From positions 62,001-126,000 of the forward strand of contig JAFWZR010000013.1 of assembly GCA_017522225.1 (NCBI GenBank): 64,000 nucleotides of DNA. The letters are read 5' to 3'. This document shows, piece by piece, positions 25,744 to 38,578 of this stretch. Each line of letters begins with the position of its first letter. Within the stretch, counting starts at the first letter, position 1. Below the pieces are notes generated by a model that saw only the letters and a program-made list of their open reading frames with translations, ran no database searches and was not told the DNA's origin. This stretch comes from Clostridia bacterium. GTDB taxonomy: Bacteria > Bacillota > Clostridia > Oscillospirales > Acutalibacteraceae. The position numbers and the translations under genes were made by a program.

Positions 25744-26931
25744 ATGGAATTGATTACTAACCTGCTTGCAGGTTTATGGGAATCATCAGGTTTTGCTCTT
25801 CTTACGTGGCAGAACCTTGTGATGATCGGTGTTGCAGTCGTTTTCCTTTTCCTCGCGATTGCTAAAAAATTCGAACCGTTGCTGCTTGTACCGATTGCCT
25901 TCGGTATTCTTCTTGCAAATCTTCCCGGCTCAGGTGTTATGGATGATGTTACATTGTCTCAGGCATTCGGCGGTGACGGTTCACTCGCAGGTAACGGACA
26001 TTGGTATGAATCAGGCGTTTTGCGTATTATCTACGCAGGCGTTAAGTCAAGTATCTTCCCCTGCCTTATTTTTCTCGGTGTCGGTGCAATGACTGACTTT
26101 GGTCCGCTTCTTTCCAACCCCATCAGTCTTCTTCTCGGCGCAGCTGCACAGCTTGGTATTTATGTTGCGTTTATTATCGCAATTCTTCTCGGCTTCACAC
26201 CGCAGGAGGCTGCATCAATCTCTATCATCGGCGGTGCTGACGGTCCGACAGCCATCTGGCTTACAGGTAAGCTCGCATCCCATCTTCTTGCTCCGATCGC
26301 TCTTGCAGCCTATTCATATATGGCTCTTATCCCCCTCATTCAGCCGCCTATTATGAAGATTCTTACAACAAAGAAAGAGCGTGAAGTCAAGATGACTCAG
26401 CTCCGTAAAGTTTCAAAGACAGAGAAGATTGTTTTCCCCGTTATTGTACTTGTTCTTATTGCACTTATTCTTCCGTCTGTTGTACCACTTCTCGGTATGC
26501 TTATGCTCGGTAACCTCTTCCGTGAGTGCGGCGTTGTTGAAAGGCTTTCAGACACAGCACAGAATGCGATGAACAACATCGTCGTTATCCTTCTCGGTGT
26601 TACGGTCGGTGCTACAGCTAACGGTGAAAGCTTCCTTAAGGTACAGACACTCGGTATTGTTGCACTCGGACTTACAGCATTCGTATTCTCAACAATCGGC
26701 GGTGTGCTTCTCGGCAAGTTGCTTTACGTTATTACCAAGGGTAAGATCAATCCCCTTATCGGTGCTGCAGGCGTTTCTGCCGTACCTATGGCCGCACGCG
26801 TTGCACAGAACGAAGGAAGAAAGTATAACCCGACAAACTTCCTTCTTATGCACGCTATGGGCCCGAACGTTGCAGGTGTTATCGGCTCGGCTGTTGCCGC
26901 AGGCTTCCTGCTTCTTATGTTCCAGAATTAA
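25744..26931 (+). CDS. Na+-translocating decarboxylase beta subunit, copy 2
   Basis: A 395-residue paralogue of OadB at 23606-24709 with the same landmarks (ISIIGGADGPTAI, AAYSYMALIPLIQPPI, LFRECGVVERLSDTAQN). It carries about 28 extra residues, mainly in an N-terminal external loop near 60-95 (SQAFGGDGSLAGNGHWYES). That loop differs sharply from copy 1 and could change ion or partner specificity. No second alpha subunit accompanies it. It ends at a strong bidirectional terminator. Confidence 0.92.
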   Translation: MELITNLLAGLWESSGFALLTWQNLVMIGVAVVFLFLAIAKKFEPLLLVPIAFGILLANLPGSGVMDDVTLSQAFGGDGSLAGNGHWYESGVLRIIYAGVKSSIFPCLIFLGVGAMTDFGPLLSNPISLLLGAAAQLGIYVAFIIAILLGFTPQEAASISIIGGADGPTAIWLTGKLASHLLAPIALAAYSYMALIPLIQPPIMKILTTKKEREVKMTQLRKVSKTEKIVFPVIVLVLIALILPSVVPLLGMLMLGNLFRECGVVERLSDTAQNAMNNIVVILLGVTVGATANGESFLKVQTLGIVALGLTAFVFSTIGGVLLGKLLYVITKGKINPLIGAAGVSAVPMAARVAQNEGRKYNPTNFLLMHAMGPNVAGVIGSAVAAGFLLLMFQN

Positions 26932-26943
26932 TCTGATACAAAC

Positions 26944-26985
26944 AAAAATCCCTGAAAAGTTTTTATATCTTTTCAGGGATTTTTT
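26944..26985. terminator. Bidirectional terminator
   Basis: A perfect 16-bp stem (26944-26959 with 26969-26984) flanked by A and T runs. It separates the decarboxylase locus from the convergent ZIP transporter gene. Confidence 0.88.
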
Positions 26986-26993
26986 ATGTTTAT

Positions 26994-27749
26994 TTAACCC
27001 AACAGCACATCGGAGACAAGCATTACACAGAAGCCGACAAGGAGTGCGTATGTGGCGCCGCGCTCTGAGCCGTGAGAGTGTGTTTCGGGTATCATTTCAT
27101 CACTTATAACGTAGAGCATCGTTCCGCCTGCAAACGCGAGCGCAAAGGGCAGGATAGCCGATGCAACGCTGACTGCAAAGTATCCGAGTAAAGTGCCGAC
27201 GACCTCGATAAGTCCCGTTATCATCGCGCACACGAAGGTTTTTCGCGGTGTTATACCCGCTGCAAGCATCGGGCCGATAATAACCATACCCTCAGGAATA
27301 TTCTGCAACGCGATACCGCCTGCGATCAGAAGTGCCTCTGTTGTGTTTCCTGAGCCGAAGCCGACACCCGCTGCTATTCCTTCAGGAAGATTATGGATTG
27401 CAATAGCCATCACAAACAACAGAACCTTACTGAGTTTTTCGTTGTTGCTGTGCTCTTCGTTATCCGCACCGACCATTTTGTGCATATGAGGTACCAGCTT
27501 ATCGATAAAATTAAGACACAAAGCACCGACAAAAATGCCAATAACAGTAATTACTATACCGAATTTTCCTCCATAATCAATCGACGGAAGTATAAGTCCT
27601 ATAACAGCTGCCGCAAGCATAACGCCTGCTGCGAATGAAAGGACAATGTCGCTGAATTTGTGTGAAATATTTTTGAATATAAAACCGATTATCGAGCCGA
27701 TTATTGTTGCACCGCCGACACCGAGTGCCGTTAATAAAACCATCTGCAT
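26994..27749 (-). CDS. ZIP-family divalent metal transporter
   Basis: A 251-residue membrane protein with about eight helices. The signature helix IV HNLPEGIAAGVGFG and helix V NIPEGMVIIG hold the metal-binding His and Glu residues of ZupT/GufA-type ZIPs. A short His-containing cytosolic loop lies near residue 88. It probably takes up Zn2+, Fe2+ or Mn2+. The AGAGGG ribosome site favours the first of two close ATGs. It is transcribed alone. Confidence 0.88.
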   Translation of the reverse strand: MQMVLLTALGVGGATIIGSIIGFIFKNISHKFSDIVLSFAAGVMLAAAVIGLILPSIDYGGKFGIVITVIGIFVGALCLNFIDKLVPHMHKMVGADNEEHSNNEKLSKVLLFVMAIAIHNLPEGIAAGVGFGSGNTTEALLIAGGIALQNIPEGMVIIGPMLAAGITPRKTFVCAMITGLIEVVGTLLGYFAVSVASAILPFALAFAGGTMLYVISDEMIPETHSHGSERGATYALLVGFCVMLVSDVLLG

Positions 27750-27831
27750 AAGATTCCCTCTTTCGGAATTGTACTATAGTCAGTATATGCCAATAATAAC
27801 ATTTGTGAGCAGAATAGTAAAGCTTTTTATT

Positions 27832-27864
27832 AACAAAAAGCTCGTTGACCGAAGCCAACGAGCT
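27832..27864 (-). terminator. Terminator of rplM-rpsI
   Basis: A perfect 9-bp stem (27839-27847 with 27856-27864) followed on the minus strand by TTTTTGTT. Confidence 0.85.
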
Positions 27865-27896
27865 GATTTTGTAAGATAAAACCCATTCGGGACAGA

Positions 27897-28295
27897 TTAT
27901 CTCTTTGAGAACTGAGGTGCACGACGTGCGCCCTTGAGACCGTACTTCTTTCTTTCCTTCATTCTCGGGTCACGAGTGAGGAAGCCTGCCTTCTTGAGTG
28001 CCGGGCGGAGAGCCTCGTCATACTGAAGAAGAGCTCTTGAAAGACCGTGACGGATAGCACCAGCCTGACCTGTTACGCCACCACCGTTTACACGGCATAC
28101 GATGTCGAACTTCTCTGTTGTGCCTGTCAACTCGAGAGGCTGACGAACGATGAGCTTAAGTGTATCAAGACCGAAATAATCGTCGATATCTCTGTCGTTG
28201 ATTGTAACCTTACCTGTACCTGCGTATACACGAACACGTGCTACTGACTTCTTTCTACGGCCTGTGCCATAGAAATACGGAATTGAATCGTACAT
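27897..28295 (-). CDS. rpsI: 30S ribosomal protein S9
   Basis: A 132-residue ribosomal protein with the S9 signature [14 protein letters not shown] at the N-terminus and the basic tail [16 protein letters not shown] that reaches the P-site tRNA. It follows rplM by 18 bp, the near-universal L13-S9 operon. Confidence 0.98.
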
Positions 28296-28313
28296 TATAT
28301 TTGCCTCCCTTCT

Positions 28314-28742
28314 TTAAAATGCCCACTCTTCGGGCTTCTGTGCAGCGTGCTTATGCTCAGCACCTGCATATACGCGAAGTCTTGTGAGAGCTTCACGGCC
28401 GATTGTTGTGTCAGGAATCATACCCTTGATAGCCTTTTCCATTGCGAAAGTCGGCTTTGTACGCATAAGTGTGCTATACTTAACCTCTTTCATATGGCCA
28501 ACATAGCCTGTGTGATGGAAATACTTCTTCTGATCGAGTTTGTTACCTGTAAGAACAACCTTCTCAGCGTTGATAACGATTACATGGTCGCCGCAATCTG
28601 CGTGCGGTGCGAATGTGGGCTTATGCTTACCGCGAAGGAGTGTTGCTGCTTCAGTTGCTACGCGACCGAGCGGCTTGCCTGCTGCGTCAAGCACATACCA
28701 CTTACGAACGATGTCGTTCGCCTTAGGCATATAAGTTGACAT
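28314..28742 (-). CDS. rplM: 50S ribosomal protein L13
   Basis: A 142-residue L13 with [21 protein letters not shown], the central [10 protein letters not shown] and the C-terminal [17 protein letters not shown] segment. It is first in the rplM-rpsI operon, with a recognisable promoter and a GGAGGT ribosome site. Confidence 0.98.
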
Positions 28743-28776
28743 AAACTTACCTCCAAATAATTTTTAATGCTCGCAT

Positions 28777-28805
28777 AGTTTAACATAACCCCCGATGTAT
28801 GTCAA
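28777..28805 (-). promoter_or_regulatory. Promoter of rplM-rpsI
   Basis: On the minus strand: TTGACA (28800-28805), 17-nt spacer, TAAACT (28777-28782). Confidence 0.75.
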
Positions 28806-28950
28806 TACCTTTTTCGGTAATTTTTTAATTTAACTTTTACAAGCTCGTTTTTTCTCCATTTTTCTCGTTTTTTTATATCAAATGCTCTTTTTTAAAATAT
28901 AAAAAATTTTTATATTGTTTTTGTAAATAATAACAAATTTCATTTATCTC

Positions 28951-28989
28951 GGCAGATTATACCCTTTCGTGGGTATAGTCTGCCTGTTT
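28951..28989 (+). terminator. Terminator-like hairpin just upstream of the phage head module
   Basis: A 14-bp stem with one wobble pair (28951-28964 with 28971-28984) followed by TGTTTTT. No plus-strand gene precedes it, so it either shields the module from stray transcription or acts as an attenuator in its leader. The 301-bp gap at 28743-29043 otherwise holds only the rplM promoter and AT-rich sequence. Confidence 0.65.
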
Positions 28990-29043
28990 TTGCCCATAGG
29001 GTGAGAGACTTGTTCTCTTAAAAGCGATGAAAGGAAACATACA

Positions 29044-29526
29044 ATGGCACTTAAAGAAAAGGAAAAACTGTTCTGTTCCTACTATTCGGAGCTGCGTAAC
29101 GCACGCAGTGCCGCCGCAAAGGCAGGATACGGAATTCTCACCCACCGCAGTGCGGTAAAGCTCCTTGCCCGTGAAGACATACGCAAGGAAATCGAGCGCA
29201 TCGACCGTACCAGACTTGTCAGCGTTGAAGAGGTTATCTCGGGATACCGTCAGCTGGCATTCGGTTCGGTTGCCGATGCACTCAAGCTTGTTTACTCTGA
29301 CGACGGCCCCGATAAATTTGAAATGGAAGGACTTGAGCTTTTTAACGTAAGTGAAATCAAGCGTCCGAAGGGCGGCGGAATTGAGATTAAATTCTTTGAC
29401 CGTATCAAGGCTCTTGAGCATCTTGAAGCCTTGTGCGATTCAGGTAAAGATGACGACTCCGCCCTGCCGTTTTATATGGCACTTGAAAAGAGCGCCTCCG
29501 CTTTAAGGAGTTGTGACGATGAGTAA
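29044..29526 (+). CDS. Phage terminase small subunit (TerS)
   Basis: DNA-recognition subunit of a phage packaging motor, 160 residues. The N-terminal KEKLFCSYYSELRNARSAAAKAGYG is the helix-turn-helix typical of Terminase_2-like small subunits, followed by an oligomerisation region. A GAAAGGAA ribosome site precedes the ATG. Its last 8 bp overlap the terminase large-subunit gene. First gene of the head module. Confidence 0.87.
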   Translation: MALKEKEKLFCSYYSELRNARSAAAKAGYGILTHRSAVKLLAREDIRKEIERIDRTRLVSVEEVISGYRQLAFGSVADALKLVYSDDGPDKFEMEGLELFNVSEIKRPKGGGIEIKFFDRIKALEHLEALCDSGKDDDSALPFYMALEKSASALRSCDDE

Positions 29527-30787
29527 TGCACTCGAGAGTTTTTCCGAATTCTCACCCAAGCAGCTTGACGTGCTGACGTGGTGGTGCCGTAATTCAGACA
29601 AGAACCGCTACGACGCCATCATCTGTGACGGTGCCGTGCGTTCGGGAAAAACCGTGTGTATGTCACTTTCGTTTGTCGCGTGGAGCTTCTATGATTTTAA
29701 CGAAACCTCGTTTGCAATCTGCGGTAAAACAATAGCATCACTTAAACGCAACGTAATCACACCGTTGACACCCATTTTAACCTCCCTTGGCTTCGGGTTG
29801 AAAATGAGGGCTTCGCAGAATTTTATGGAAATCACGTATAAAGACAAAACAAATCGCTTTTACCTTTTTGGCGGTAAGGATGAAGGCTCGGCTTCGCTGA
29901 TTCAGGGTATGACTCTGGGCGGAGTTCTTCTTGACGAGGTTGCGCTTATGCCCCGCTCATTTGTTGAACAGGCTATTGCACGTTGTTCACTTGAGCGTTC
30001 AAAAATGTGGTTCAACTGTAACCCCGAGCACCCGATGCACTGGTTTTATCGCGAATGGATAAAAAAGGCTGAAAACAAAAACTGCCTTTATCTGCACTTT
30101 ACCATGCGCGATAATCCTGCATTGACAGACGCAATCATACGACGGTATGAAAGCCTTTATTCGGGTGCTTTTTACAAGCGCTTTGTTGAGGGTAAATGGG
30201 TTGCTGCACAAGGCACAGTATACCCGATGTTTTCGCAGGAAATCCATATCCGCAAGCCTCCGGACATTGCTTTGATTGAGCGTTTTTACATCTCCTGTGA
30301 CTACGGCACGGTCAACCCCTGCTCCTTTGGGCTGTGGGGGCAATATGACGGCAAGTGGTACAGAATCCGTGAATACTATTATAACTCACGCTCGGAGGGT
30401 GAACAGCGCACAGATATGGAGCATTATGCCGAGCTTGAAAATCTTGCGGGAGAAATTGAGCCCGAGGCGGTTATTGTTGACCCGTCTGCTGCAAGCTTTA
30501 TCCAATGTATCCGTCGGAAAGGCCGTTTTACGGTGATACCTGCAAAGAACGATGTTCTTGACGGTATCCGTCAGGTATCCGATGCACTCAAGCAGGAATT
30601 GATTTATTTTTCTCCCGAGTGCGAGGATACTCTTCGTGAATTTTCACTTTATAAGTGGGACGAAAAAGCAGTCCGAGATGCACCGCGCAAGGAAAACGAC
30701 CATGCTATGGACGACCTCAGGTATTTCGTCACTACGGCGCTAAACGCACCTGACAGCGACTTTTTCGTTATGAGTGTATCCCGATGA
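29519..30787 (+). CDS. Phage terminase large subunit (TerL, PBSX-like)
   Basis: ATPase/nuclease that drives DNA into the capsid, 422 residues from the ATG at 29519 (AAGGAG 8 nt upstream; a GTG 6 bp earlier is less likely). The ATPase has a Walker A-like DGAVRSGKT (about 38-46) and Walker B LLDEVALMP. The RNase H-like nuclease contributes SCDYGTVNPCSFGLWG, VIVDPSAASF and HAMDDLRYF, whose acidic residues form the metal site. All key motifs are intact, so the protein looks functional. Confidence 0.93.
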   Translation: MSNALESFSEFSPKQLDVLTWWCRNSDKNRYDAIICDGAVRSGKTVCMSLSFVAWSFYDFNETSFAICGKTIASLKRNVITPLTPILTSLGFGLKMRASQNFMEITYKDKTNRFYLFGGKDEGSASLIQGMTLGGVLLDEVALMPRSFVEQAIARCSLERSKMWFNCNPEHPMHWFYREWIKKAENKNCLYLHFTMRDNPALTDAIIRRYESLYSGAFYKRFVEGKWVAAQGTVYPMFSQEIHIRKPPDIALIERFYISCDYGTVNPCSFGLWGQYDGKWYRIREYYYNSRSEGEQRTDMEHYAELENLAGEIEPEAVIVDPSAASFIQCIRRKGRFTVIPAKNDVLDGIRQVSDALKQELIYFSPECEDTLREFSLYKWDEKAVRDAPRKENDHAMDDLRYFVTTALNAPDSDFFVMSVSR

Positions 30788-30827
30788 CGGATGCATTCTC
30801 CCATGACAACAGGAAAGGAGAGTCTGA

Positions 30828-31970
30828 GTGGGAATTTTCAAAAAATTATCCTCTGCAAAAACTGCTGTAACTGCTCCGCAGACTTACAGACACAATCCTT
30901 TCGACCGACTTGACAGTTATATACCTCTTACCTCACCGCAAAATGCTCTTTACAGAGAATTGCGTGAGGCTGTACCCGTGCTTGATGCTGCAATACACAA
31001 GATTGTCCGTCTGACCGGTGGCTTCAGCATTGAATGCGGTAGCGATATCAACTCACAGAGACTTAATTCTTTTTTTAAGCGCGTTGATGTCGGCGGTAAT
31101 CAGCAAGGTATTGAGTCTTTTATTTCAACTTATCTTGAACAGCTTCTCACCTTCGGCACGGCTGTAGGTGAAATTGTAACAGACACTCACGGCAGGTTTG
31201 CCGCACTCTACAACGCAGATCTTGACGACATTGAGCTCAGACGCTCTCAGGACGGATTCTCGACTGAAATTTTTGTAAAGAACTCTTACGAAACAGTCCG
31301 AGTCTCTTACCCTGACCTCGTGATGCTTTCCGTGCTTAATCCCGATGCGGGCAGTCTTGGCGGAAATTCACTGATGAAGGGTCTGCCGTTTGTAAGCAAC
31401 ATTCTGATGAAAATCTACAACACAATCGGCATCAACTGGGAGCGTGTCGGTAATGTGCGCTTTGCCGTTACATATAAGCCTCAGAACGATGTAGTTGACC
31501 GTGCCTATGCCCGTGACAGGGCACAGCAGGTTGCACGTGAGTGGAGTGAAGCCATGCAATCCGGTAAGCAGGTGCGTGACTTTGTTGCAGTAGGTGATGT
31601 CAGCATCAAGGCAATCGGTGCTGATAATCAGATACTCGACAGTGAGGTGCCTGTGCGTCAGATGCTTGAGCAGATTGTAGCAAAGACGGGCATTCCCCCG
31701 TTTATGCTTGGTCTTAGCTGGTCCACGACAGAAAGAATGTCTGCTCAGCAGGCAGATGTGCTGACAAGTGAGCTTGAGGCATACAGAAGAATTCTTGAGC
31801 CTGTGATTGAAAAAATCTGCTTTTTCTGGCTCAGGTCGAACGGTATTCAGGACAGCGTTCGGGTTATGTGGAACGACATCACTCTTCAGGATGAGGTTGA
31901 ACTTGCAAAAGCTGCTCTTTACAGAGCACAGAGTAAACGGATCGAACAGGAGTTGAATAACAATGAATAA
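30828..31970 (+). CDS. Phage portal protein
   Basis: Dodecameric DNA entry channel, 380 residues. GTG start with AAAGGAGAG ribosome site. The sequence shows portal-family segments: LREAVPVLDAAIHKIVRLTG, the central wing beta region, and the clip/stem helix region with GIPPFMLGLSWSTTERMSAQ. It is slightly short for the family but appears complete. It overlaps the next gene by 8 bp. Confidence 0.88.
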   Translation: MGIFKKLSSAKTAVTAPQTYRHNPFDRLDSYIPLTSPQNALYRELREAVPVLDAAIHKIVRLTGGFSIECGSDINSQRLNSFFKRVDVGGNQQGIESFISTYLEQLLTFGTAVGEIVTDTHGRFAALYNADLDDIELRRSQDGFSTEIFVKNSYETVRVSYPDLVMLSVLNPDAGSLGGNSLMKGLPFVSNILMKIYNTIGINWERVGNVRFAVTYKPQNDVVDRAYARDRAQQVAREWSEAMQSGKQVRDFVAVGDVSIKAIGADNQILDSEVPVRQMLEQIVAKTGIPPFMLGLSWSTTERMSAQQADVLTSELEAYRRILEPVIEKICFFWLRSNGIQDSVRVMWNDITLQDEVELAKAALYRAQSKRIEQELNNNE

Positions 31971-32928
31971 AGAATTTAAAGCAAATGTTTCCCCCTGTAC
32001 GGTCACTGAAGAGGAACTGCTTCTTATCAACAAGCTGACCGTCAAGGAATTGAAAGCAGAGGAAGTTTTCACTTTTAAAGTTATCCTTTGCGATAACGAG
32101 GTTGACCGCGACTGTGAGCGCTTCGATATTGCGGCGCTTGAAAAGCTGGCAGAGCTGTTTGTGGGCGTAACAGGTATTTTTGACCACAACCCCTGCGGCG
32201 GCAACCAGACTGCAAGAATATTTGACACTGAATGTGAAACATCAAAGGACAAGGTCACATCCTGCGGTGACAGTTATGTCTGTGTCAAAGCGAAGGCATA
32301 TATGCCGATAACGGGCAAAAATGCCGACCTTATTGCAGAAATTGAAGCAGGAATAAAAAAGGAAGTAAGTGTCAGCTGTGCAGTCAGCAGCTTCACCTGT
32401 TCGGTCTGCGGCGGTGATATGCGCCACGGCAGCTGCGGACATATCCGAGGCGAGGTTTACGGCAACAGAAAATGCCACTGCATCCTCTCAGATGTTACCG
32501 ATGCTTACGAATGGTCCTTCGTCGCTATTCCTGCACAGATAAACGCAGGTGTTACAAAGGGCTTTGAAAAAGAATATGAAAGCACAGATAATCTGATTAA
32601 AACCGTCAGAGACGGCAGATGTGTCAAGTTCACGAGCGAACAGGCAAAGGAGCTTTGCAGTTACATCACAAGACTGGAAAAAGAAGCTGAAGACGGCAGA
32701 CTTTTCCGTAAGAGTCTTACTGATGACACCGTCAGATACGCACTTCTTGCCGTGCCTGAACTTGATGCGGACACAATCAGAAACCTGTGCTATTCTGCCG
32801 AAACAGCAGAATTAATCAATATCAAAAATGCCTTCAGAAGTAAAGCAAGTGAGTTTATTCCGCTTACACCTCAGCTCAAGGCAAAGAAAGAAAAAACACA
32901 GACAGATAATAATGAATTTAAATTTTAA
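31963..32928 (+). CDS. Putative prohead protease/scaffold with a Cys-rich insert
   Basis: A 321-residue protein in the slot between portal and capsid where phages encode the maturation protease. Candidate catalytic His in GIFDHNPCGGNQTARI (about 67-82) and Ser in KEVSVSCAVSSF (about 138-149), the His/Ser spacing of herpes-like prohead proteases. Right after the Ser lies a cluster CSVCGGDMRHGSCGH followed by NRKCHC, which could bind zinc. The C-terminal 120 residues are helical, charged and scaffold-like. The family call is inference from position and motifs; no exact profile was checked. Confidence 0.65.
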   Translation: MNKEFKANVSPCTVTEEELLLINKLTVKELKAEEVFTFKVILCDNEVDRDCERFDIAALEKLAELFVGVTGIFDHNPCGGNQTARIFDTECETSKDKVTSCGDSYVCVKAKAYMPITGKNADLIAEIEAGIKKEVSVSCAVSSFTCSVCGGDMRHGSCGHIRGEVYGNRKCHCILSDVTDAYEWSFVAIPAQINAGVTKGFEKEYESTDNLIKTVRDGRCVKFTSEQAKELCSYITRLEKEAEDGRLFRKSLTDDTVRYALLAVPELDADTIRNLCYSAETAELINIKNAFRSKASEFIPLTPQLKAKKEKTQTDNNEFKF

Positions 32929-32940
32929 GGAGGACTTAAA

Positions 32941-33993
32941 ATGAGTTTTGATAATATCAGACTTGAAAAGGGTATGTACGGCACAGGCCGTTCATTTACA
33001 CAGACACTTGAGTCTCTTGACCCTTCAGACAATTATAAGGGTACTGAGCTTGAAGGTCTTGATGCTTACGAAAGAAAGCTTAAGCGCTTCAACATCAAGC
33101 CGACAGGTGCAGACAGCTCCGTTCTCGGCAAGTTTTTCCAGACAAGCAATGCCGCTGTTCTTTTCCCCGAATATGTTTCCCGTGCTGTCCGTTACGGTAT
33201 GGATGAAGCAAGTTTCCTGCCTGACATTGTGGCTACAGTCACAAATATCGATTCAATGGACTACCGCGTGATGGACCTTAATATGACAAAGGACAACGCC
33301 ACAATGAACGTTATTTCTGAGGGTGAGGTTCTTGCAAATGCAGACTTCACTGTCAGTGACAGAACAATTCGCCTTAAGAAGCGCGGCAGAATGATTACAA
33401 CATCCTACGATGTACTTCGTTTCCAGCGTCTTGATGTTGTTTCAATCGCCCTTAAGCGTATCGGTGCTTATCTCGCACAGAGTCTTATGGCAGATGCAAT
33501 TGATGTGCTTATCAACGGTGACGGCGGTAACAACGCTGCAAAATCAATTGCTCTTTCCACATCTGCTTATACTTACGCTGAACTTATCGATTTCTGGACA
33601 GCATTTGCCCCGTATGAGCTTAACACCATCCTTGCTTCACCGACTGTAACAAGCTATCTCTTAAAGATGGAAGAATTCAGAGATGCGGCAGCAGGTCTTA
33701 ATTTCCACGGTACAGGCAAGCTTATCACACCGTTCGGTGCAAACCTCATCAGAACAAGCCATATTACTAACCCTGAAACCATGATCGGTCTTGATAAGAA
33801 CTGTGCACTTGAAATGGTCAAGGTCGGCGACATTGAAACAGACTACGGCAAGCTGGTTGACAGACAGCTCGATCAGATTGCCATCACGGCAATTACAGGT
33901 TTTGCAAAGATTCTCCCTGACAGCGTCAAGATAACTCATACAGACGGCTTCAACACAGGAGACGGCGGCAGCGGAGACTATCCGACTGAATAA
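32941..33993 (+). CDS. Major capsid protein (HK97-fold)
   Basis: A 350-residue shell protein. The N-terminal region (about 1-60) may be a processed delta domain. The body shows the E-loop/P-domain pattern FPEYVSRAVRYGMDE, then RTIRLKKRGRMITTSYDVLR, a helix of the spine, and the A-domain near ELNTILASPTVTSYLL. A GGAGGAC ribosome site gives the strongest initiation signal in the module, as expected for the most abundant protein. It is followed by connector genes. Confidence 0.85.
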   Translation: MSFDNIRLEKGMYGTGRSFTQTLESLDPSDNYKGTELEGLDAYERKLKRFNIKPTGADSSVLGKFFQTSNAAVLFPEYVSRAVRYGMDEASFLPDIVATVTNIDSMDYRVMDLNMTKDNATMNVISEGEVLANADFTVSDRTIRLKKRGRMITTSYDVLRFQRLDVVSIALKRIGAYLAQSLMADAIDVLINGDGGNNAAKSIALSTSAYTYAELIDFWTAFAPYELNTILASPTVTSYLLKMEEFRDAAAGLNFHGTGKLITPFGANLIRTSHITNPETMIGLDKNCALEMVKVGDIETDYGKLVDRQLDQIAITAITGFAKILPDSVKITHTDGFNTGDGGSGDYPTE

Positions 33994-33996
33994 TAT

Positions 33997-34389
33997 ATGA
34001 CAGCCTGGGAAGTTAAAGACAGTCTTTCTCAACTGACCGGTTGGGAAAAATCCGAGGAGGACAGCATCCTCACCCTTTGCAAAACCTGTCTTAAAGAAAT
34101 TGAAGCTATGCTGAAACCCGATGCTGATCCTACTGACATACGTATCGCTGCCGTTGCAGCGGCACTTGCTTACTATAAGCTTTCGCTCAAAAGAAGCTTT
34201 TGTGAGAACGAGGAAGAGATTACAAGCTTCAAAGCAGGTGATGTGAGCATCACTCAGACAAGGGCGGACATATCACGCCTCGCTGATAAGGCGGAGGCAC
34301 ATTACCGCAAATCTCTTGAAGCTATCCTTCCCCTTTGCAGAGATAACGGCTTTGCATTTGAAAATATACTTATCAAGGTGAAAATATGA
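33997..34389 (+). CDS. Head-tail connector (gp6-like adaptor)
   Basis: A 130-residue, mostly helical protein starting 3 bp after the capsid stop. Its pattern (AWEVKDSLSQLTGW, then LTLCKTCLKEIEAML, and VAAALAYYKLSLKR) matches gp6/gp15-like adaptor proteins that dock under the portal. It overlaps the next gene through ATGA. Confidence 0.7.
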   Translation: MTAWEVKDSLSQLTGWEKSEEDSILTLCKTCLKEIEAMLKPDADPTDIRIAAVAAALAYYKLSLKRSFCENEEEITSFKAGDVSITQTRADISRLADKAEAHYRKSLEAILPLCRDNGFAFENILIKVKI

Positions 34390-34721
34390 CTCTGACATCT
34401 ATGTTTGACAAATTCGGTCAGGAAGTAACCTTTAAGGGTAATGACGGATGGAGCACACCGATTTTCGGTGGCTTCATCCAGCCGCTGAGATACAAAAACA
34501 AAATGTACCTCAACGGTGTTAATACCGTTATCGGCTTTAACAGTCAGGGACATTACCTTTATATAGGCCCTCCTGACCACGATATAAGTAAGCTTAACAA
34601 CAATCAGTGGATTGAGTCCAACGGGCAGAAGTTCACCGTGGACAGAAGCGAGAAGGTTTACTTTAAAAACGATGTAATTTACATCTGGGCAATCATACGC
34701 GAGATTGTGGAGGTGGATTGA
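34386..34721 (+). CDS. Head-closure/stopper-like phage protein
   Basis: A 111-residue, beta-rich protein coupled by ATGA to the adaptor gene. Position and size correspond to the head-closure protein (SPP1 gp16-like), and GQEVTFKGNDG with later GQKFTVDRSEKVY fits a small beta barrel. It could also be a minor structural protein. Its stop overlaps the next ATG by one base. Confidence 0.55.
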   Translation: MTLTSMFDKFGQEVTFKGNDGWSTPIFGGFIQPLRYKNKMYLNGVNTVIGFNSQGHYLYIGPPDHDISKLNNNQWIESNGQKFTVDRSEKVYFKNDVIYIWAIIREIVEVD

Positions 34722-35551
34722 TGGACAGTATTGTTTCTTTGCCACAAAAGATTGTTGACTGGCTGAGCGAACAGGAGGATATGAACGACATTAAATTCTT
34801 CGTGGAATATCCTCCCGTCAATAAAGCCGTCCCTCTTCGCAGAAGTATCGTGGCCGTAGGAATAGAAAACATTGAAATTGTTGACAAATTCGTTGCAAAC
34901 GATGACGGTGTTCTGGAAAGACAGGAATACTGCCGTCTTGCAAAAATCAAGGCTAATCTCAGCATCTGTGTCCCCTTCTCTATGGGCGGACAGACCTGTC
35001 ACGATATTTTTACGCGAATTACCAATGCGCTTACCTTCCGTACAAACCTGAATATCGCAGAGTCAGGCTGTGTAGAGATTAAATCCGACAGAGACACCGA
35101 CGCGCTTGTAATGACAGGCTGGTTTCTTATGGAGGCGGATTTCTGCCCTGCACAGAGTACCGACGAGAATTTCGCATCCTTTCTTGACAAGGAGCTTCTT
35201 TGCGGAAGTCACATAAGAAACAGTGACATTCACGTCACACTCGACGATAAATCAAAATGGAACGAATCCTTTGTAACGGGAATATATATGGGTACGGGTA
35301 GCGGTTCAAGAAGCATTAATCTCGGCTTTATACCGAGTCTTGTGCTTGCCTGTGCTGCAGGTTATCCTCCGGTTGTAGTTAATTTTACCGATTCGGTTAC
35401 CAAGAATTATTTTTGTATGGCAACGATTGACACCTCAACCGGTATAACGATTAAATCCAACGGCTTCAGCGCATCGTCAAAAACGGTGGCAGGAGCCGAA
35501 TGTACAATGAACGAAGCAGGTGTAACTTACACTTATATTGCTTTTAAGTAA
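34721..35551 (+). CDS. Tail-terminator-like domain fused to a fibre-like C-terminal domain
   Basis: 276 residues from the ATG at 34721, which follows GGAGGTGG. The N-terminal half (about 1-145) resembles tail-terminator/tail-completion proteins by position and pattern. The C-terminal half (about 180-276) reads like the beta-rich end of phage tail fibres: FVTGIYMGTGSGSRSINLGF and a terminal NEAGVTYTYIAFK. This joins the last connector to a surface-binding-type domain with no tail genes in between. Either an internal deletion fused two phage genes, or the fusion was kept for a purpose. It is the last gene of the module. Confidence 0.6.
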   Translation: MDSIVSLPQKIVDWLSEQEDMNDIKFFVEYPPVNKAVPLRRSIVAVGIENIEIVDKFVANDDGVLERQEYCRLAKIKANLSICVPFSMGGQTCHDIFTRITNALTFRTNLNIAESGCVEIKSDRDTDALVMTGWFLMEADFCPAQSTDENFASFLDKELLCGSHIRNSDIHVTLDDKSKWNESFVTGIYMGTGSGSRSINLGFIPSLVLACAAGYPPVVVNFTDSVTKNYFCMATIDTSTGITIKSNGFSASSKTVAGAECTMNEAGVTYTYIAFK

Positions 35552-35586
35552 TAATAAAGCATTTAAATCGCCATAAAACAATTATG

Positions 35587-35619
35587 AAAGCGGTCGGGAA
35601 ATCCCGACCGCTTTTTTTC
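35587..35619 (+). terminator. Strong terminator closing the phage head module
   Basis: A GC-rich stem (35589-35598 with 35603-35612), AAAT loop and seven T. Confidence 0.92.
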
Positions 35620-35620
35620 G

Positions 35621-35649
35621 TTGACATAACTGAAAAAATCACCTATAAT
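35621..35649 (+). promoter_or_regulatory. Consensus promoter of the dockerin/LRR protein gene
   Basis: Exact TTGACA (35621-35626), 17-nt spacer, exact TATAAT (35644-35649), directly behind the terminator. Confidence 0.87.
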
Positions 35650-35690
35650 TATGTTGGTTTAAAACACAAAAAATTAAAGGAGACTTGAAA

Positions 35691-38312
35691 ATGAAAAGAT
35701 TTCTTTCAGTGTTCCTTTGCGTATGTCTTGTTATGACTACTCTTGCTTCAGGTGTTGTAACAGTATTCGCTGAGGGAAACAAAATTGAATCAACAGAGAT
35801 TACCTGGAATTTCAATGCTGAAACAGGTGAGCTCCATTTTGAAGGCGAGGGTCCCATTCCTGACTTCAATAACTACTCCGAAGCAGGTGCTATTCCGTGG
35901 GCAAACACTGCTTTTACAAGCATTGTTTTCAGTGAGGGCATCACAGCTATCGGTAACTACGCTTTCTACTCTTGCGAAAGCCTTAAAGAAGTTGTAATCC
36001 CCGACACTGTGACAGTACTCGGTAATGGTATTTTCAACAGATGTACTGCTCTTGAGAGTGTTAAGCTTCCGTCAGAGGTTACTGCAATCGGTGACAATAT
36101 GTTTTCACTCTGTCTTGCACTTAAGGATGTTACCTTCGGTGCAAAAATTCAGAGCATCGGCACAAAGGCCTTCTACAGATGTGCAGCACTTGAGAGCATA
36201 ACTCTTCCTGAAACCTTTAAGAGCATCGGCACCTCTGCTTTTGAAATGTGTACTGAGCTTAAGGAGGTTATCCTTCCCGAGGGACTTGTTTCAATCGGTG
36301 ACCGTGCATTCTTCAACTGTGAAAATTTGCTGTCGATCACTCTCCCCTCAACTCTTGAGACACTCGGTGCAAGTGCATTCAACGAATGTAACAAACTCGC
36401 AGAAATCACAATTCCCGAAAAAATCACAACTATTCCTGCAGAGGCTTTCTACAACTGTACCTCACTTGCAAGTGTAACACTTCCGACAGGTCTTGTTGCT
36501 ATTGAGGACAAGGCATTCTATCTCTGCCCGTCACTCCTAAATGTTGCTGTTCCCGTAGGTGTAAATACTTTCGGTGAAATGGCACTCGGCTACGGAAGCA
36601 AGAGCGAACCCATCAAAGGCTTTAAAATCACAAGCTTCTACAACACCAACGCCCGCCTCTATGCCGAAAAGAACGGGTTTGAATTTGAGTCAATCGGTTA
36701 TGTCATTACAGGCGAATGTGGTGAAACCGCAACCTGGGAATATAATGCAGATGAAAAAACACTCTACATCAAGGGCTCAGGTGCAATAAAAGATTATACA
36801 AAAGACAACATAGCAATCTACAACCTTATTGATTTTGAAAAGGTTGTAATCAGCGAAGAGATTACAAAAATCGGTGCTTATGCATTCTACGGCGCACCTG
36901 CTGTGGAGTTTGAGCTTTCAACTGCAATTACTGAAATCGGTGAGAAGGCTATCGGCTATTACGCTGACAAGGACAACAAGGACACTGTACGCGAGGAAAC
37001 ACTCATCACAGCTTACGAAAGAACCGCAGCACACTCTTATGCAAAAGAAAACAACATCGCATTCAATTCTCTCGGTAAGCTTCTCGCAAACGAGGGCTCC
37101 TGCGGTGAAAACGCTACCTGGACCTACAACGAGGAAACAAAGACACTTACAATCAACGGTACAGGCGCAATTGCTGACTACACACCGGAAACTGTTCCTG
37201 ATTATGTTTACCACGATGTAACATCAATCGTGATCGGCAAGGGAATCACAAAAATCGGTGCTTACGCTTTCTACGGTGCACCTGCTCTTAAGTTTACACT
37301 TTCACGAAACATCACAGAAATCGGTGAAAAGGCTATTGGCTACTATGCTGACGAAAACGGTGCTGAAGCACGCCGTGAGGGTACCGTAATTTCTGCTTAC
37401 GAGCAGACTGCAGCACACACTTATGCAACAGCAAATGAAATCACTTTTGATTCAAAGGGCGTCTACATTGCAACTGAAGGCAAATGCGGTGAAAACGCAA
37501 CATGGTCTTATAACAAAGATACAAAGGTGCTTACAATCAGCGGTACAGGTGCAATCGACAACTTCAAAGCAGATGCACTCCCCGAATTTGCAGATTACGA
37601 AATCAGCTCTGTTGTTGTAACAGACGGCATCACAGCAATCGGTGACTACGCACTCGCAACCACAAAGGATTATGCTGAAATTACAATCGGCAAGGATGTA
37701 ATGAGCATCGGTCAGAATGCTTTCGGTGTGAAGAAGACATTCATCCCCGACGAGAACGGCAATCCGACTGACGAGGTTGCATTTATTCCGAATAACGAGC
37801 TTGTTGTAAAGGGTTACCTTGTTACCCCTGCAGACGAGTATTCAAGAGAATATGAGTTCATCTTTGAGGCTCTCGACGGCGACACATATATTGAATTTTC
37901 AAGCAACATTTCCTCAGTTACTGACCACATCAACAAGTTCCTCTTTGTATATCCTGCAAGAGATAATACAGCTGAAATCAATATAACCGCAAAGGACGAA
38001 AGCATTACCGTAACAAAACCCGAAAAGTTCAAGACAAAGGCTCTTCTTACTTTCACAAAGGGTGACAAAACAGAAGAGTATACAGTTGTTGTTGTCGGCG
38101 ATGCAAACTGCGACGGTGTCGTTAACTCAACAGACGCACTCCGTGTTCTTATGCACACTGTAGAAAAAAATGTCATTGATGATGCTGCCGTAACGCAGGC
38201 GGGCGATATTGACAACAACGGTGCGATTAACTCAACAGACGCTCTTGCAATACTTCAGATTTCTGTTGATAAGAAAAAAGTGACAGATTTCTACAACCCC
38301 GGAAAAATCTGA
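35691..38312 (+). CDS. Secreted BspA-type LRR protein with repeated modules and C-terminal dockerin
   Basis: An 873-residue extracellular protein. ATG at 35691 follows AAAGGAG; a TTG 6 bp upstream is less likely. Signal peptide about 1-26 (KRFLSVFLCVCLVMTTLASG). Residues about 27-325 contain 23-residue BspA/LRR_5 repeats (pattern LPSTLETLGASAFNEC). Three 128-residue modules follow, each with CGE(T/N)ATW, a KTL-type strand and an ITKIGAYAFYG-like LRR unit. The end is a dockerin type I domain with two Ca2+ loops, GDANCDGVVNSTDALRVL and GDIDNNGAINSTDALAIL. The dockerin should plug the protein into a cohesin-bearing scaffold at the cell surface. No catalytic domain is visible, so a binding or adhesion role is likely. 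Confidence 0.9.
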   Translation: MKRFLSVFLCVCLVMTTLASGVVTVFAEGNKIESTEITWNFNAETGELHFEGEGPIPDFNNYSEAGAIPWANTAFTSIVFSEGITAIGNYAFYSCESLKEVVIPDTVTVLGNGIFNRCTALESVKLPSEVTAIGDNMFSLCLALKDVTFGAKIQSIGTKAFYRCAALESITLPETFKSIGTSAFEMCTELKEVILPEGLVSIGDRAFFNCENLLSITLPSTLETLGASAFNECNKLAEITIPEKITTIPAEAFYNCTSLASVTLPTGLVAIEDKAFYLCPSLLNVAVPVGVNTFGEMALGYGSKSEPIKGFKITSFYNTNARLYAEKNGFEFESIGYVITGECGETATWEYNADEKTLYIKGSGAIKDYTKDNIAIYNLIDFEKVVISEEITKIGAYAFYGAPAVEFELSTAITEIGEKAIGYYADKDNKDTVREETLITAYERTAAHSYAKENNIAFNSLGKLLANEGSCGENATWTYNEETKTLTINGTGAIADYTPETVPDYVYHDVTSIVIGKGITKIGAYAFYGAPALKFTLSRNITEIGEKAIGYYADENGAEARREGTVISAYEQTAAHTYATANEITFDSKGVYIATEGKCGENATWSYNKDTKVLTISGTGAIDNFKADALPEFADYEISSVVVTDGITAIGDYALATTKDYAEITIGKDVMSIGQNAFGVKKTFIPDENGNPTDEVAFIPNNELVVKGYLVTPADEYSREYEFIFEALDGDTYIEFSSNISSVTDHINKFLFVYPARDNTAEINITAKDESITVTKPEKFKTKALLTFTKGDKTEEYTVVVVGDANCDGVVNSTDALRVLMHTVEKNVIDDAAVTQAGDIDNNGAINSTDALAILQISVDKKKVTDFYNPGKI
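36700..37851 (+). repeat. Three in-frame 384-bp tandem modules inside the LRR/dockerin gene
   Basis: The same codons recur at an exact 384-bp period. The conserved Cys codon is at 36717, 37101 and 37485, and the ACAaAAATCGGTG-like start of the LRR unit is at 36864, 37248 and 37632. The first two copies are more alike than the third. Confidence 0.85.
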
Positions 38313-38367
38313 TAAGCGGTAAAATCACAGCACTTTATACAAATTGTATAGTATAATTTTTACACTC

Positions 38368-38411
38368 TATGGCTTTGGGCTTCATTACGAGGCTCAAAGT
38401 CATAATTTTTT
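38368..38411 (+). terminator. Terminator after the LRR/dockerin gene
   Basis: A stem with wobble pairs around 38368-38382 and 38390-38404, followed by a T run. Confidence 0.65.
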
Positions 38412-38453
38412 GTGTATTTTTTTAGTAATATTCACATATTTTTTCAATTTCTA

Positions 38454-38482
38454 TTGTTTTTTCTGTTAATATGTGATATAGT
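38454..38482 (+). promoter_or_regulatory. Promoter of the EF-G-like gene
   Basis: TTGTTT (38454-38459), 17-nt spacer, TATAGT (38477-38482). The leader of about 90 nt contains a small AAGCA/TGCTT hairpin followed by six T. Confidence 0.45.
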
Positions 38483-38578
38483 AACCGTATGATGCGTTGG
38501 TAAGCAAGATGCTTTTTTACAAATAAAAAACACCGGCAAATACAATCTGACGCTCAATAAACAAAGGAGGAATTTGTT

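Follow-up and report, generated by a model that had tools for sequence, protein, structure and literature searches.

How a bacterial chromosome comes to carry a full set of genes for building and filling a phage head, with next to nothing of a tail, is the question raised by eight genes in a stretch of 64,000 nucleotides from a Clostridia bacterium of the Acutalibacteraceae (GCA_017522225.1, contig JAFWZR010000013.1, positions 62,001 to 126,000; hereafter the window). The eight open reading frames (29044-35551, plus strand) are all open, abut or overlap, and stand in one consistent order. A preliminary description of the locus had read them as a complete capsid and packaging set with open frames, placed between rplM and a dockerin gene and lacking integrase, repressor, replication and lysis genes, and the reading frames and profile matches of the window agreed with each of these points. 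It had left three options: a domesticated capsid or gene-transfer-like particle, a capsid-forming satellite that had lost its mobility genes, and a recent deletion remnant. The comparisons reported here point to the first. The block is probably a domesticated, vertically inherited head and packaging module of a viriform resembling a gene transfer agent (GTA), of PBSX-type descent and since stripped of its tail.

The genes for the large terminase subunit (TerL) and the capsid were found in 18/18 sampled genomes of the genus, the own genome included. All eight genes were matched without stops in 15 of the 17 other members, among them G005, and G001, whose block is split over two contigs; in G006 the block is cut by a contig end. 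Within the family, the portal profile matched 176 of 300 genomes, 150 of the 229 of high quality, and 80 of 135 genera; all but six of the 176 had a single match. Across the order, portal matches were obtained in 43 of 295 genomes from six families (all E < 1e-90), 20 of them in the window's family. These families are known by code only (f1, the window's family; f14, f26, f7, f2 and others); for the 23 portal matches outside f1, 21 loci were read, those of G366 and G503 not among them. Two further sets comprised the best 80 of at least 586 portal-relative loci (L055-L134), which as the best-scoring relatives are biased to the window's own kind, and the best 80 of 220 IMG/VR loci (L135-L214). 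Ten contigs occur in both the sampled-genome and the portal-relative sets and are doubled in joint counts unless stated. Loci were classed as LONG when baseplate genes were kept, SHORT when a neck-fibre fusion was present and MIN when the block ended at the neck genes.

The inheritance of the module was compared with that of its host. Among 23 module-bearing genomes, TerL identity followed rplM identity (Spearman rho 0.964); for G003 this value rests on the partial rplM next to the module (96% identity), and use of the full copy elsewhere (82%) gave a rho of 0.959. Two rplM and two capsid genes were present in G003 (contigs C116, C126 and C152), so that this bin is probably mixed. In the window and in the seven species closest to it, the module adjoins rplM, whereas the upstream neighbour differs in the other sampled genus members; the downstream neighbours are kept in G007. 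A complete prophage at this locus in relatives, which the preliminary description had named as the mark of a sporadic deletion product, was not found in any of those seven species with the block beside rplM. Upstream of the module, divergent mgtE adjoined it in 16 of 76 portal-relative loci with capsid and portal (10 SHORT, 3 LONG and 3 contig-cut) and in three sampled-genome loci, including that of genus member G001. This site is common to long and short forms and is therefore likely an older one.

Selection was analyzed by the ratio of nonsynonymous to synonymous substitution rates (dN/dS), calculated by the Nei-Gojobori method (NG86) with 11-12 sequences for each module gene and 6-9 for each control, giving 8-57 pairs per module gene after exclusion of pairs with dS outside 0.1-2.0. 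Median dN/dS ranged from 0.055 to 0.148 across the eight module genes. The controls gave 0.072 for rplM, 0.022 for rpsI and 0.044-0.053 for three other conserved neighbours, and the neighbouring gene with leucine-rich repeats (LRR) and a dockerin gave 0.196. Relaxed selection on TerL or capsid, which the preliminary description had named as a refuting result, was not seen (0.055 and 0.117, respectively). The earlier argument that open frames speak against simple decay is thus in agreement with both dN/dS and distribution.

The origin of the module is indicated by relatives that still carry tail genes. Sheath, tube and baseplate genes followed the head genes in 7 of the 8 f14 loci read (from 10 f14 portal matches) and in 3 of the 9 f26 loci read, and a sheath was also present in f7 and f2 loci. 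The order in these sheathed relatives is TerS-TerL-portal-protease-capsid-neck-sheath-tube-LysM-hub-gp25-gpJ-gpI (TerS, small terminase subunit), which presumably matches the xtm/xkd order of PBSX. The 128-aa gene after the sheath was assigned as tube by its position and its three best matches to solved structures, all weak (8q01, 0.0019; 31es, 0.015; 9g8s, 0.022). In ten sheathed modules (L220-L225, L227, L232, L235 and L236) the sheath was short, about 350 aa, and the interval of about 0.6-1.35 kb between the tube and LysM genes left room for at most a very short tape measure. Because the module occurs with sheath, tube and baseplate genes elsewhere in the order, the ancestor was probably a contractile-tailed phage of PBSX type.

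The tail content of the remaining loci was graded. Six f26 loci (L228-L231, L233 and L234) contained only head genes, one connector, a neck gene, a small gene and a baseplate hub, a form that is an independent reduction; gpJ was absent in 9 of the 10 genomes searched of these reduced-form genera, a count that includes four genomes outside the set of loci read. The 31 f1 loci and the 80 portal-relative loci, some of them cut short, yielded no sheath. The 30 sampled-genome loci comprised 21 SHORT, 4 LONG, 2 MIN and 3 cut, and the 80 portal-relative loci 45 SHORT, 14 LONG, 8 MIN, 9 cut and 4 without capsid or portal, which were not scored. Household genes stood directly after the MIN blocks by reading, for example a dCMP-deaminase-like gene or a rimP-nusA-infB row. 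The window block does not encode a contractile tail like that of PBSX: genes for sheath, tube and tape measure are absent. Genome-wide, a gpJ-type baseplate gene was found in none of the 18 genus genomes, other baseplate types and lysis genes not being part of that search, and a sheath in none of the 17 other genus genomes.

On the core tree, the modules grouped mostly by host family: seven sheathed f14 rows together at 99 (starred), nine f26 rows at 90, and 44 rows at 95 (starred), consisting of all 11 f1 rows and 33 portal-relative loci without family code. The tree is unrooted; the sheathed forms lie outside the window's group, and loss of the tail is therefore the simpler direction.

One tail part does remain. 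The preliminary description had stated that the block holds no tail gene, which stands for sheath, tube and baseplate; it fails for the last gene, whose C-terminal part matches small tail fibres and is fused to a neck protein. Residues ~1-160 matched the separate neck protein of LONG relatives and residues ~161-277 the head domain of their small fibre. At the join, the motif CP-x(12-22)-C-x2-H-x(5-7)-H was present in 56/56 distinct fused proteins, including 15/15 outside the alignment from which it was derived. The C..H..H part occurred in 1 of 25 separate fibres, and the CP end in none of 34 distinct separate neck proteins. The N part evolved slowly (dN/dS 0.059) and the C part faster (0.255; 11 pairs each), which fits a structural ring bearing a binding head. 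Fused forms stood at two separated places on core-gene trees, and their shared Cys/His linker suggests either one fusion origin or exchange of the last gene.

These features bear on an alternative in which the heads serve the producing cell or its population without entering other cells, for example by keeping DNA safe from nucleases, by killing or lysing cells or by protecting against phages. Tail parts were lost at several places on the tree while the heads and the packaging motor stayed under selection, as would be expected of such heads, and PBSX, which has the same TerL family, does not inject its packaged DNA according to the available part of one report (PMC12946183). This alternative is nevertheless considered unlikely: the fused binding domain, which has a Cys/His linker of its own and a faster C part, has been retained and looks more like an adhesin than dead weight.

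The flanks were inspected for mobility genes. None of the 28 most widespread flanking families of the portal-relative loci was phage-like as judged by sequence starts, and no integrase, repressor, replication or lysis gene recurred beside the module. A tyrosine integrase lay 0.7 kb downstream of one SHORT module in the opposite direction (L137:7395-8468) and probably belongs to a separate element at a tRNA gene; by reading, a serine-recombinase-like open reading frame lay upstream of the module in L199. Three properties of GTAs were accordingly observed: a virus-derived cluster with vertical inheritance, purifying selection as on a host function (from dN/dS), and no linked replication, integration or immunity genes apart from L137 and L199. 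Capsid-forming phage-inducible chromosomal islands (PICIs) are marked by an integrase and satellite regulators, carried on a mobile island; neither was seen in the window block or among these flanking families. A satellite that had lost its mobility genes is not needed as an explanation, given the relatives with sheath, tube and baseplate, and it is the domesticated option that gained from the presence in the whole genus and across the family, the purifying selection, the concordance with the host and the lack of recurrent mobility genes.

The neck genes may instead have been kept for docking, with the conserved heads joining the tails of resident phages. Tail hijacking by capsid-forming PICIs is a precedent, and the blocks that end at the neck genes in several loci would suit such borrowing. 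So would a separate contractile-prophage fragment in the own genome (L219, G000:C16:1-8375), in which sheath, tube and a 1237-aa tape measure were recognized by reading. Tail borrowing is still quite improbable, since the window block has no satellite-type integrase or replication gene, the fused fibre domain of the SHORT forms argues for an adhesin of their own, and the genus genomes lack sheath and gpJ in the counts given above, other tail types not having been searched. A recent prophage deletion remnant in neutral decay can be dismissed on distribution and dN/dS: one broken copy and absence from part of the family would agree with it, whereas the same block occurs in 18/18 genus genomes, dN/dS is far below 1, the forms cluster on the tree, and the reduced forms are common to many genomes.

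The identity of the products was supported to different degrees. TerS, TerL, the portal and the capsid were confidently assigned by Pfam, PHROGs and NCBIfam profiles. TerL matched PF03237 (9e-16) and phrog_2 (3e-52), passed the NCBIfam model TIGR01547 'PBSX family phage terminase large subunit' (207.6 bits vs a cut-off of 105), and its profile matched the solved terminase 5oe8 at 5.5e-173. The claim that its ATPase and nuclease motifs are intact was upheld: the residues that we take to be the Walker A, Walker B and nuclease acids all lie in invariant columns among 22 relatives. In the protease-like protein, H75, S136 and E183 were invariant in 25/25 relatives, together with a Cys/His cluster; its profile family has no name, and the residue pattern and gene order fit a prohead protease. 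The connectors were assigned mainly by position and are weakly supported candidates. In sequence searches of solved structures, the portal gave no match at 0.01, the protease-like protein chance-level matches only, and the fused last protein a 32-residue linker match to 6r5w (0.0029); the last gene had no match in Pfam, PHROGs or NCBIfam. As a control, the capsid family PF25209 had no match in B. subtilis and matched in Caulobacter vibrioides and Synechococcus elongatus.

Among described systems, the nearest is FpGTA of Faecalibacterium, by analogy with which the present module would make small heads filled with host DNA. In the available part of that description (Borodovich et al. 2026, PMC12946183), its heads measure ~40 nm with no identifiable tails, contain 8.4-8.9 kb of DNA that runs as a sharp band near 9 kb and appears to consist of random host fragments, and have structural proteins shown by mass spectrometry; five of the strains are reported to have another operon, for baseplate, fibre, receptor binding and lysis. 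The window's genus differs in lacking a gpJ-type baseplate gene in 18 genomes and in having the neck-fibre fusion. GTA-like packaging is also reported there for Oscillospiraceae (Onthomonas), Christensenellaceae and Ruminococcus callidus, and a search of four packaged metagenome-assembled genomes, including Onthomonas, for the operon gave one strong candidate (PMC12946183, same part). Such cases might be explained by the present module, which is spread over six families of the order. Distant TerL-profile matches (E 5e-95 to 1e-38) were found in 6 of 12 genomes of genus g182, which is guessed to be Faecalibacterium. DNA of the phage FP_Mushu gave long matches in three sampled genomes only (85%, 80% and 67%), and a Faecalibacterium 16S probe matched 0/395 sampled genomes, in which the 16S may be absent or masked.

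The likeness to PBSX of Bacillus subtilis lies in the PBSX-family TerL; the sheathed relatives differ by their little room for a tape measure, and the window's family by its reduced or absent tail. The GTA of Rhodobacter (RcGTA) has a full tail and another host class, and capsid-forming PICIs, which have their own head and packaging genes and no tail, are mobile islands with integrase and regulators, unlike the window block. RcGTA (Rhodogtaviriformidae) is virus-derived, vertically inherited and packages host DNA in the accessible text of PMC9953437, and the first two properties are shared by the module. Capsid-forming PICIs form a named class of satellites in the part available of PMC11389934. 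No description of the module was found among the open-licence papers listed for gene transfer agents in connection with Clostridia, Acutalibacteraceae, Oscillospirales or Clostridiales.

A course of events consistent with domestication can be proposed. A PBSX-type contractile-tailed phage would have been domesticated in an ancestor of the order and its tail then lost. Under some trigger, the cell would make small HK97-type heads, matured by the protease and filled through the portal by TerS and TerL with pieces of the host chromosome. The connectors, together with a ring formed by the last, fused protein, would close the portal and display fibre-type binding domains at the former tail site, and release would depend on unlinked lysis genes. 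The least certain step is the role, which may be the passing of host DNA between kin, as proposed for FpGTA. Put tentatively, the module may encode a new tailless gene-transfer particle, in which HK97-type heads deliver host DNA and carry a fibre domain on the neck through a metal-binding hinge, widespread in a family of gut and rumen Clostridia, with the stepwise reduction of a contractile-tailed ancestor readable from living relatives.

Several observations weigh against this view of the module. A tailless head leaves the exit of the DNA without an explanation, and no lysis gene or shared regulator was found beside the module, lysis genes not having been searched genome-wide. The own genome is 69% complete, and its contractile-prophage fragment could in principle lend a tail. 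No portal match was obtained in 124 of the 300 family genomes, so that the module is dispensable; one in-frame stop was present in 12 of the 150 portal matches listed, out of 176 in the family. One of the 18 genus copies is broken (G009, portal reduced to 24% and protease to 76%), and in G005 the protease frame is open with no common start codon at the expected start. The core tree does not place L226 (f14) or the loci of f7 and f2 by family, and L226, L237, L238 and L239 lie apart on it. A distant portal (29.5%) is also encoded by a genuine phage, Microcystis phage MACPNOA1. The faecal record MT835508, described next, would fit packaging but may be cell contamination.

The portal matched six phage records, five from Mexican faeces, of which two were annotated, and the Microcystis phage. 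MT835508 (L241; 46.7 kb, human faeces, Mexico), deposited as bacteriophage, was found to be chromosome around a head-only module, with ribosomal-protein, rnf and nrd genes by reading. It probably came from a DNase-treated particle preparation (PMC8361208, available in part), record and paper being linked by inference. MT835769 (L242), also deposited as bacteriophage, is bacterial chromosome with the module. Some short IMG/VR contigs (L135-L214) may also be chromosomal, and it is suggested that among the short 'phage' contigs of virus databases some are household loci of bacterial chromosomes.

If the view of a domesticated module is right, heads that package DNA would belong to the stable household equipment of a large gut and rumen family, and would be a candidate source of the host DNA packaged in faecal particle fractions for which genes are not known. 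The series from contractile tail through neck-fibre fusion to bare head would make the minimal needs of a gene-transfer particle directly testable, in part in Caproicibacter fermentans (Acutalibacteraceae by NCBI lineage), a species in culture whose locus (L133) is of the LONG form. This locus starts at the same contig coordinate as that of family genome G251; the two are probably one genome, which puts f1 in the Acutalibacteraceae. That a head module should be conserved, its tail lost by degrees and its neck protein fused to a fibre domain, was unexpected; FpGTA is a close functional precedent.

Possible regulation was sought upstream of TerS. Terminator-like hairpins bound the module near 28951 and 35587, where the preliminary description had placed them (Table 1). 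The leader hairpin was kept in 10 genus members, with 90.4% of cells paired vs at most 44.4% when slid. Eight cells were changed on both sides, a count as high in 2 of 500 shuffles; the number of pairs with two-sided changes, three, was reached by 325 of 500 shuffles and is not unusual. A terminator-like hairpin was found upstream of TerS in 37 of 100 loci vs 2.95 in shuffles (32/91 without doubled contigs) and, where the upstream gene is divergent, in 14 of 53 loci vs 2 of 60 control starts (13/49 without doubles), counts that are still inflated by close relatives. Antitermination control of the module through this hairpin is a lead and not a result; such control of a GTA is reported for Caulobacter in the accessible part of PMC11150451. 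The LexA-type box GAACN4GTTC was absent from all 104 stretches upstream of TerS, which leaves SOS control of that type unsupported, and no Rfam family reached its gathering score within 26000-38500.

Table 1. Coordinates of the module genes and bounding hairpins in the window.
Feature	Position	Strand	Basis	dN/dS
TerS, small terminase (Terminase_2)	29044..29526	+	PF03592 2e-15	0.093
TerL, large terminase of the PBSX family with intact motor and nuclease motifs	29513..30787	+	profiles	0.055
Portal	30828..31970	+	phrog_30703 4e-137	0.096
Prohead-protease-like protein, conserved His/Ser/Glu and Cys/His cluster	31963..32928	+	phrog_16951 2e-103	0.141
Major capsid protein	32941..33993	+	PF25209 3e-12, phrog_3922 1e-83	0.117
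Putative connector 1 (Ad1-like position)	33997..34389	+	position; weak phrog_541 0.048	0.148 (9 pairs)
Putative connector 2 (head-closure position)	34386..34721	+	position; weak phrog_82 (Hc1-like) 0.3	0.088
Neck/tail-terminator domain, Cys/His-rich linker and fibre-type head domain	34718..35551	+	comparison with relatives	0.126
Leader hairpin then T-run, ~57 bp upstream of TerS; possible attenuator/antitermination site	28951..28984	+
Strong intrinsic terminator ending the module	35586..35615	+

The module is flanked by divergent rplM/rpsI on one side and by the BspA-type LRR and dockerin gene (window 35685-38312), which adjoins it, on the other, and its G+C content is 46% vs 44% in the window. 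A relative of the LRR-dockerin gene was observed near modules in eight of the portal-relative loci, four of them from the window's genus.

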